Below, in pieces: positions 58,884 through 61,197 of a DNA stretch of 64,000 nt. Both the position numbers and the translations under genes were made by a program. The notes under the pieces were generated by a model that searched no databases, was not told where the DNA came from, and saw only the letters and a list, made by a program, of their open reading frames with translations. This DNA comes from Natrinema saccharevitans (GTDB lineage: Archaea; Halobacteriota; Halobacteria; Halobacteriales; Natrialbaceae), in contig NZ_LWLN01000001.1 of assembly GCF_001953745.1 (NCBI RefSeq), positions 2,046,001 through 2,110,000 of the forward strand, written 5' to 3'. Numbering within the stretch: position 1 is the first letter of the stretch; each line of letters opens with the position of its first letter.

Positions 58884-59635
58884 TTACCCGCGTTTGTCCG
58901 GCATCGTCGAGTGGCGGGCGGTCCCGCGCATGTCCGCCCGCTGGGACGGCGGCGGTGCCATCGTCGAGTGTCGGCTCGGCCCGCCCGAGGCCGTGCCCCC
59001 GCTCCCCGTCGCCGCCGAGTCCCGAGCCCAGCAGCCCCTCGTCCTCGTCGGCGGCTTCGGCCTCCGCAGCCTCGTCCCCGGCCGTCGTGTCGTCCGCGTC
59101 GCTCTCGGCCGTCCCGGCGCGTCGCTCCTCGAGTCGCGCCTTCAGTCGCGACACCTCGTCCCCGAAGTCGGCGAACGAGTCGCGCATCGCCGACCGGAAC
59201 CCGTCGCCGAGGTCGTCGGCCGACGACTCGGCTCCGCTCTCGCTTTCCGTCGACTCGGCCGGTTCGCCGATCGCTTCCTGCAGCTCGCCGACGGCGTCCC
59301 CGAGCCCGCCGTCGTCCGCTCGGTCGGCGAGCCTCGAGAGCCGGAGCAACCGCTGGAGATCCGCGACGTTCTCCCGCTCGCCCCGTGCGATCGCCTCGGG
59401 GATCGAGTCCGGCTCCGAGCCGTCCTCGAGCGTGTCCAGGCCGACCGCCGAAAGCAGGTCGTCGGGATCGGCCGACTCGAGGATGTCGTCGGCCTCGCGT
59501 GCGGTCTCGAGCGGGTCGGATTCGGCGTCCTCGTCGCCGCCGGTGACGAGCGAGCCGCCGCGCTCGTCGGCGTCGTGCATCGTCGGCGTCGTGCAGTACC
59601 TCGCGGACGCGGTCCCGGAGTGCTGCGTCGCTCAT
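58884..59635 (-). pseudogene. Frameshifted acidic protein gene of the glycine-zipper cluster
   Basis: A long frame begins MSDAALRDRVREVLHDAD at 59635 but breaks at a perfect 16-bp tandem duplication (59564-59579 and 59580-59595). The second frame then reads ERGGSLVTGGDEDAE and acidic helices to about 59005. At a run of five C (58996-59000) the GC3-rich frame shifts again to one ending GTARHSTMPDKRG and stop at 58884. Removing 16 bp and one C gives an exact 244-codon frame. As it stands only a 258-residue frame from an ATG at 59580 (to 58804) is open. It has no recognised family. Confidence 0.6.
59564..59595. repeat. Perfect 16-bp tandem duplication
   Basis: TCGTCGGCGTCGTGCA occurs twice head to tail. 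It lies in the first part of the frameshifted gene. The junction creates the ATG (59578-59580, minus strand) of the shorter reading frame. Confidence 0.9.
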
Positions 59636-59699
59636 CTGTGTCTGTGTCGCTTCGTTCTCGCTGGTCGTCCCCGCGACGGGACACGATGCGGTCGGTCGA

Positions 59700-60398
59700 C
59701 TACTCGGCCTCGGCCGCTTCCGTCTCCGAGTCGTCCGCTTCCTCGCCGGTCACCGTCTCGACGATCTCCGCCGTCATCTCCTCGCGGCTGAGGTTGGCCT
59801 TCACGCCGACGTCTTTCGCGATCGACTGCAGGTCGCTGTAGGACAGCACCCCGAGGAAGTCCTCGAGGGTGTCTTCCCGCAGGTCTTCGATCTCTTCGAC
59901 GGACGGGTCGCCGTCCGAGTCCGCCGGTTCGTCGATCTCCTCGCCGCCCTCGGTTTCCGACTCGGTCCCGTCGCTGTCCTCGCTTTCGCCGCCGACCCCC
60001 TCGAGAAGCCCTTCGACGCCGCCGCCCTCGGTGACGCCGTTCGCCATCGACTCGAGGGAGTCGCGGCCCCCGATCTCCGAGATCGATTCCCGGACGGCGT
60101 CCGCGACCGCCGTCCGAACCTCGGCCGGCAGTTCGCCGAGTTCTTTGCCGTCCTCGAGACCCTCGGCAACCGTCTCGTGGACCCCGCGACCGACGGCGGT
60201 CCCCAGTTGCCGGCCGAACTGCTCGCCGAACTGGCGGCCGACCGCGGTCCCGATCTCGCCGCCGTCGATGCTGTCCTCGATGCTGCCGTCCCCGAGCATG
60301 TCGGCCACGTCGATCTGTGCTTTCATTTCGTCGGCGACCATCCCCTTCAGCCCGGACTCGTTACTCACGGCGATCACCGCCGCTCGAGTCGCGGCCAT
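59700..60398 (-). CDS. Glycine-zipper protein with C-terminal SAP/Rho-N-like region, unknown
   Basis: 232 residues. Residues 49-66 form a glycine zipper IGTAVGRQFGEQFGRQLG (Gly every fourth residue), continued to about 75. A helical region follows, then an acidic linker (SEDSDGTESETEGGEEIDE). The C-terminus FLGVLSYSDLQSIAKDVGVK resembles SAP or Rho N-terminal-like helices that bind nucleic acids (inference). It shares the zipper with the next gene upstream. No known family. The start MAATRAAVIA is the first ATG after the previous stop. Confidence 0.7.
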   Translation of the reverse strand: MAATRAAVIAVSNESGLKGMVADEMKAQIDVADMLGDGSIEDSIDGGEIGTAVGRQFGEQFGRQLGTAVGRGVHETVAEGLEDGKELGELPAEVRTAVADAVRESISEIGGRDSLESMANGVTEGGGVEGLLEGVGGESEDSDGTESETEGGEEIDEPADSDGDPSVEEIEDLREDTLEDFLGVLSYSDLQSIAKDVGVKANLSREEMTAEIVETVTGEEADDSETEAAEAE

Positions 60399-60418
60399 TG
60401 CGAAGCCGGCTCACGGGC

Positions 60419-60934
60419 TTACGCTTCCTCCTCGGCTTCGGCTTCCATTTCTTCCTCGTCGGACGCGTCATCGCTCCCGTCCGTCGCCTCCTCGGCGTCG
60501 GCGTTGGCGTCGGTCTTTTCGCCGCCTTCGTCATCGCCCTCCGCTGCCGTTTCCTCTTCGGAGGCCCCGTCTTCGGACTCCGCGCTCTCCTCGTCGTCCG
60601 ATTCCTCGGACTCCTGACTCTCCGATTCTGACTCGTCCGACTCCTCGTCGGCCGTCTCCTCGCCGTCGGCGACGCCGCTTTCCCCCTCTGCCACCGACTC
60701 GGCCTCGTCGCTACTGAGCAGTTCCTCGACGACCACGTTCCCGATCGTCCGACCGAGCGACTCCCCGACCTTCCGGCCGACGAGCGCGCCGATCTGCCCG
60801 CCCAGCACCGCGCCGAGGAGCACGTCCTCGTCGATCTGGTCCTCCCACCGAGTGCCCTCGACGAGCTGGTCGACGTCGATATTCTCCGTGATCGCCTCCG
60901 TATCGATCCGCTGTGTGATTGATTCGTCGCTCAT
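60419..60934 (-). CDS. Glycine-zipper acidic-tail protein, unknown
   Basis: 171 residues. N-terminal 75: MSDESITQRIDTEAITENID then LLGAVLGGQIGALVGRKVG, with zipper IGALVGRKVGESLGRTIG at 48-65, a possible membrane-associating helix. The last 95 residues are almost only Glu, Asp, Ser, Ala (tail SEEETAAEG...). Its start overlaps the stop of the upstream small gene (ATGA). The zipper matches its neighbour at 10 of 18 residues. Function unknown. Confidence 0.72.
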   Translation of the reverse strand: MSDESITQRIDTEAITENIDVDQLVEGTRWEDQIDEDVLLGAVLGGQIGALVGRKVGESLGRTIGNVVVEELLSSDEAESVAEGESGVADGEETADEESDESESESQESEESDDEESAESEDGASEEETAAEGDDEGGEKTDANADAEEATDGSDDASDEEEMEAEAEEEA

Positions 60935-61197
60935 GATGTCGCCTCCGTTCCCGCGGACGACTCGGTCTCCTCGTCGCCATCTCGGGTCGACTCGTCCTGC
61001 GTCGCTTCCGAGGTGTCGCTCTCGGGGCCGTCTCCCTCGTCGGCCGGTTCTCCCACCTCCGCCCGGCCGCCGTCGGTCAGTACCCGACGCGGCGGCCCCG
61101 TCAGCCGCTCGCCGTCGTCGGGACGACCCGCGGAACGCTCGCCCCGCTCGAGGGGCGAACGTTCTCTCGAACCGTCACGTTCGAACTCTGCGGTCAT
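60931..61197 (-). CDS. Small disordered protein, first of the glycine-zipper cluster, unknown
   Basis: 88 residues. Basic first half (FERDGSRERSPLERGERS, then RLTGPPRRVLTDGG) and an acidic Ser/Thr/Glu second half. No helix or family is recognised. The start ATG was chosen because it is the first in frame after a stop; its stop overlaps the next start by 4 nt, so translation is coupled. The 105-nt gap upstream is enough for a promoter separate from the propeller gene, though no strong TATA is seen. Confidence 0.6.
   Translation of the reverse strand: MTAEFERDGSRERSPLERGERSAGRPDDGERLTGPPRRVLTDGGRAEVGEPADEGDGPESDTSEATQDESTRDGDEETESSAGTEATS

Follow-up and report, generated by a model that had tools for sequence, protein, structure and literature searches.

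The window analyzed here, a stretch of 64,000 nucleotides of the Natrinema saccharevitans genome, carries on its minus strand a group of genes that we termed g1 to g4 (Table 1). The initial annotation had described an unrecognised four-gene cluster, and indeed neither the proteins of the window nor their relatives scored above the cut-off in scans with Pfam and NCBIfam. The four genes belong to a conserved, operon-like set, but the window copy itself consists of two apparently intact genes, g2 and g3, and two broken ones, g1 and g4. Overlapping starts, which had been taken as a sign of one operon, were found for g1 and g2 (4 bp, ATGA), whereas a 20-bp gap precedes g3 and a gap of about 64 bp precedes g4.

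Table 1. Genes and sequence features of the g1–g4 cluster (positions within the window)
Feature	Position	Strand	Remarks
g1 remnant, 88 aa	60931..61197	-	N-terminus and last residues of a protein of about 300–400 aa
g2, 171 aa, glycine-zipper protein with acidic tail	60419..60934	-	apparently intact
g2 glycine zipper IGALVGRKVGESLGRTIG	60740..60793	-	
g3, 232 aa, paralogous glycine zipper, acidic linker and SAP/Rho-N-like C-terminus	59700..60398	-	apparently intact
g3 glycine zipper IGTAVGRQFGEQFGRQLG	60201..60254	-	in a predicted 37-residue helix (residues 46–82, pLDDT about 90)
g3 C-terminal SAP/Rho-N/LEM-like region	59707..59898	-	predicted helices 167–184, 187–197 and 205–225
g4, pseudogene or damaged gene, GvpI-like	58884..59635	-	ancestral start 59635; original stop 58884–58886
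exact 16-bp tandem duplication in g4, 2 copies	59564..59595	-	breaks the g4 frame; new in-frame ATG at 59580
G-run in g4	58996..59000	-	exceeds the run of three relatives by one base; shifts the GvpI-like C-terminal motif RHSTMAPPPSQRADMRGTARHSTMPDK out of frame

Two related zipper proteins with acidic tails

Both 18-residue glycine zippers lie exactly where the initial annotation had placed them, and their proposed paralogy was borne out. An ungapped comparison of the N-terminal regions of g2 and g3 gave 11/18 identical residues for the best 18-mer pair, whereas 300 composition shuffles reached 10 at most, and a profile comparison showed that the homology reaches beyond the glycines and spans the whole first ~70 residues (hhalign 97.5%, E 8e-12). 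The g2 model retrieved the g3 proteins of relatives down to an E-value of 8e-9, with a likewise result in the reverse search, and the zipper glycines G45, G49, G53, G57, G61, and G65 of g2 were invariant in 28 sequences. The acidic tails are evident from the composition, as aspartate and glutamate make up 51% of residues 75–171 in g2 and 42% of residues 124–175 in g3.

The SAP-like end that had been noted in one of the proteins corresponds to a predicted SAP/Rho-N-like helical hairpin at the C-terminus of g3. In a Foldseek search, the nearest solved structures to this hairpin (residues 187–225) included the SAP domains 2rno and 1v66 as well as Rho, none of them significant. The predicted hairpin is of the kind seen in SAP, Rho-N, and LEM helix-extension-helix domains, but the matches lack a significant E-value, with E 0.12 for PF18953 and a Foldseek probability of 0.63 (E 3.1) for 2rno. 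The closest sequence relative of the motif is the C-terminal tail of the haloarchaeal ribosomal protein uS3, and g3 matches in other families that were uS3 tails were excluded. Haloarchaeal uS3 proteins end with an acidic linker followed by a g3-type SAP/Rho-N-like motif (L075:6236-7330, L076:6223-7170, L080:6323-7441).

Glycine zippers are capable of packing in membranes, and the GxxxGxxxG pattern of g2 and of fused g2/g3 proteins resembles the Pfam families PF05433, PF13488, and PF13441. However, all g2-type matches to these families were below the curated cut-offs (15.5 vs. 24.2 bits for PF05433 and 14.4 vs. 25 bits for PF13488), and the signal peptide, lipobox, and outer membrane context of such proteins were not seen. 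As inspection of g2 and g3 by eye revealed no signal peptide or lipobox, and as the zipper helix keeps conserved arginine and glutamate residues, unlike a typical transmembrane segment, a membrane role of these proteins is unlikely.

Damage in the window copy

Decay was judged against N. mahii, N. thermotolerans, and the genome G026, whose g1 genes (L063:5301-6491, L064, and L065, respectively) served as alignment partners. The g1 protein of N. mahii has 396 residues with the central core VLHLDLDGLFLDVLGLEVNLNPVQLDVSARPGSNNLLGNLLSAVTGLLDG, and the conserved hydrophobic core of the family reads LDLxGLFLDLLGLEVxLxxVxLDxSAxPGxxNLLGNLLS. In comparison to N. mahii, about 924 bp (308 codons) are deleted in frame from the g1 gene of the window, including the whole core, and the core is absent from the entire window genome. 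In g4, the start, middle, and end lie in different frames relative to the relatives, which is due to the 16-bp duplication and one extra G. The new ATG in the duplication shares the reading frame of the middle part of g4, and the site could be phase-variable. As the core of g1 is deleted and g4 is frameshifted, we regard the window copy as decayed, and the module is probably not functional in this strain.

Errors in sequencing or assembly could in principle have mimicked the breaks in g1 and g4 in a copy that is really intact and functional, as a tandem duplication and an additional base in a G-run are typical error types. This is improbable, however, as a loss of 924 bp of unique sequence cannot be a base-calling error, and as, of the 44 ORFs of N. 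mahii that had a match in the window, g1 and g4 alone appear genuinely broken, with the genes of the syntenic 64 kb as the comparison set. Three other ORFs had been flagged, two of which overlap with a longer ORF there, in one case within cbiX, while the third is cut by the window edge. In addition, a deletion was found at a second locus: the gvp set of the window genome comprises A, F–M, and O together with a damaged gvpN (L098:9730-10111, G000:C1:1357729-1358110), which is devoid of about residues 50–275, the AAA+ core, and also carries a frame change. gvpN is full-length in the three relatives checked. With the broken module and the broken gvpN, both loci are therefore damaged in one strain.

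Conservation of the gene set in haloarchaea

The cluster is conserved well beyond the window, as the ordered set was found in many haloarchaeal genera. In our collection scan, all four genes were present in the order g1-g2-g3-g4 in 50 of the 58 archaeal loci, frequently with 4-bp overlaps, and whole-genome searches detected relatives of g3 and g4 in nearly all congeneric genomes. Stretches from 20 of these genomes revealed that, where the module is complete, the locus has in most of the genus the order CbiX, DUF3209, PQQ protein, g1, g2, g3, g4, TupA, TupB, TupC, and ModE. Halocatena-type loci comprise g1, g2, and g4 only and have no g3. A literature search, which covered the field in part, did not find a description of this module.

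Relation of g4 to GvpI

The g4 family and a profile of the proteins encoded at the gvpI position of gas vesicle operons could be aligned across 238 columns (hhalign 99%, E 7e-18). These proteins, including that of the window genome, are matched by NRC-1 GvpI at E<1e-4. Like GvpI of the Halobacterium salinarum vac region, g4 has a C-terminal STM...RADM...STMP motif, and in some genomes a g4-like gene is located at the position of gvpI, flanked by gvpH and gvpJ. On the other hand, the g4 of the module is acidic, is devoid of the terminal RIYGxRF motif, is encoded together with g1–g3, and comes in addition to the normal gene at the gvpI position of the main operon (L098:6845-7768). As only the STM/STMP part of the GvpI signature (STM...STVP...RxYGxR in a basic protein) is present and g4 is acidic overall, we refer to it as GvpI-like and not as GvpI. 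A distant, long gvpI homologue with a long N-terminal extension has been described in Natrialba magadii (Nmag_0338; PMC3403918). GvpI is an assembly protein that binds GvpH, GvpF, and GvpL, and gas vesicles formed without it are very long (PMC7688916).

Association with gas vesicles

Of 391 genomes of the haloarchaeal class, 130 contained the g1 core and 162 contained PF00741 (GvpA family). All 130 genomes with g1 were PF00741-positive, 32 genomes had PF00741 only, and 229 had neither, in a count that ignores kinship. The same result was obtained outside the Natrialbaceae (42/42), inside this family (88/88), and by genus (40/40). These statistics disregard phylogeny, but contrasts are found within the single genus Natrinema: the module is present in 26 gvp-positive genomes, whereas the three gvp-negative genomes contain either no module (G005, G027) or fragments (G013). 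In G027, an empty site is left between the genes for the PQQ protein and TupA.

Gene order points in the same direction. Among the 114 genomes checked for linkage, g1 lies within 5 kb of a gvp gene in 17, which belong to several families. In G041 (L078) and Halocatena salina (L092), g1, g2, and g4 are nested in the gvp operon between gvpH and gvpJ, as they are in further Halocatena-type loci, and in G048 (L074) all of g1–g4 are located downstream of gvpM, with a g4-like gene in the gvpI place. The link to gas vesicles is thus well supported by the genome evidence. In the Natrialbaceae, the module is unlinked to gvp, with a distance of several hundred kb in the genus of the window strain, and it would therefore have been missed by studies of the gvp cluster alone.

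This lack of linkage, together with the packing properties of glycine zippers and the weak Pfam matches of g2, would fit the initial proposal of a membrane-associated or DNA-anchoring complex, in which case the module would be unrelated to gas vesicles and its association with gvp would merely reflect shared ancestry. We consider this very unlikely in view of the co-occurrence in 130/130 genomes, the nesting in operons, the GvpI-like member, and the coordinated loss in one genus, and also of the conserved arginine and glutamate residues that the sequence places in the zipper helix. The proposal is therefore not supported, and the evidence points to gas vesicles instead. We think it quite likely that a conserved four-gene accessory module of the haloarchaeal gas-vesicle system, which in the Natrialbaceae is located apart from the main gvp operon, is present here in decayed form. 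The earlier suggestion of an undescribed system stands insofar as the module is conserved and undescribed, but it is tied to gas vesicles and hence not an unrelated new system.

Mutual exclusion with GvpC

GvpC strengthens the gas vesicle shell (PMC9501494). We compared its distribution with that of g1 in 80 gvp-positive genomes, 48 with and 32 without g1. GvpC was found in none of the 48 g1-positive genomes but in 14 of the 32 g1-negative ones (p 3e-7, kinship ignored), an exclusion that would be weakened by GvpC homologues too diverged for the search. Congeneric genomes showed the same contrast, with GvpC in G071 and g1 in G066, and with GvpC in G082 and G091 and g1 in G370. As 18 of the 80 genomes had neither g1 nor GvpC, neither of them is obligatory.

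The mutual exclusion suggests that the module meets a need that is otherwise met by GvpC. Like g1, GvpC occurs in gvp-positive genomes only, and since the two were never found together among the genomes tested, they may fill the same need. Yet no sequence similarity was seen, GvpC-type repeats are absent from g1–g4, and the in-operon copies of the module lie in the accessory gvpF-M unit and not in the gvpACNO unit, which counts against a role as an outer coat. As a tentative extension, g1–g4 might replace GvpC as a shell-reinforcing or shaping complex and thus constitute a second, GvpC-free route to gas vesicles, in which zipper oligomers and the hydrophobic-core protein would cooperate with a GvpI-like partner. 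Loss or silence of the module would then help to explain Vac- species with a near-complete gvp set.

Strong GvpD matches were likewise confined to genomes without g1, in this case 8 of the 80. As uS3 shares the SAP-like tail of g3, nucleic-acid binding by g3 is conceivable, and we therefore retained the alternative that the module regulates gvp expression, with g3 binding nucleic acid via its SAP/Rho-N-like end and replacing GvpD/GvpE, and with g1, g2, and g4 as a scaffold. Such a regulatory function appears unlikely, as the exclusion is wider for GvpC (14 genomes) than for GvpD (8 genomes), with several GvpC-positive, GvpD-negative genomes that are devoid of g1. Moreover, g4 resembles GvpI, an assembly protein (PMC7688916), the Halocatena-type in-operon copies have no g3, and the fold match of g3 to SAP domains is weak (E>1).

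Possible role of the module

The composition of the module, with a GvpI-like member, a pair of zipper paralogues that could oligomerize, and g1 with its strongly conserved hydrophobic core, would fit an assembly or shell-reinforcing complex. The module is therefore likely an undescribed gas-vesicle accessory set that acts in assembly or shell reinforcement, with a mechanism that we infer as follows. The g1–g4 proteins would act jointly in either of these processes. g2 and g3 may oligomerize via their zipper helices, with the acidic tails keeping both soluble at high salt, and the hydrophobic core of g1 could contact the hydrophobic shell proteins A, J, and M. The basic C-terminal STM/RADM motif of g4 may bind to the accessory complex of GvpF, GvpH, and GvpL in a GvpI-like manner. 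In lineages without GvpC, the module may do part of the job of GvpC.

According to a review, the Vac- phenotype of Natrinema, Natrialba, and similar haloarchaea, which possess 11 gvp genes but no gvpC, gvpD, or gvpE, is unexplained (PMC4390858). As this phenotype has been reported for species of Natrinema and Natrialba with gvp clusters of that type (PMC4390858), gas vesicles are perhaps not made under the tested conditions. On genomic grounds, the module is a candidate for what these GvpC-less, Vac- species lack. This question is directly testable in Haloferax volcanii, which is devoid of gvp genes, and the module could yield new parts for gas-vesicle engineering.

Related proteins beyond the module

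The structure prediction for g1 was of low confidence (pLDDT 56), and a PDB-sequence profile search with g1 gave only designed and coiled-coil-like matches, which we judged to be low-complexity noise. The g1 core was also found at the C-terminus of bacterial proteins from Actinobacteria, Chloroflexi, Rubrobacter, and others, several of which have a signal-peptide-like N-terminus (L139, L143, L144, L148, L157, L159, L161, L169, L173, L178, L184, and L186). No gvp homologues were found beside these bacterial genes in flanks of up to 6 kb. As the core occurs in exported bacterial proteins without nearby gvp genes, the domain itself is not gas-vesicle-specific.

In distant families, g2 and g3 are fused to a single protein in which the SAP-like domain follows the zipper, encoded downstream of g1 (L079:2928-3602, L101:3221-3838); the g1 of L079 had no match in a plasmid search. 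GvpI-like genes also occur alone on plasmids, as in Halalkalicoccus jeotgali (L097:7797-8582), where no gvp genes are annotated nearby. On a plasmid of Halocatena marina, a GvpI-like gene (L095:2127-3236) is located near but outside the gvpF-M unit.
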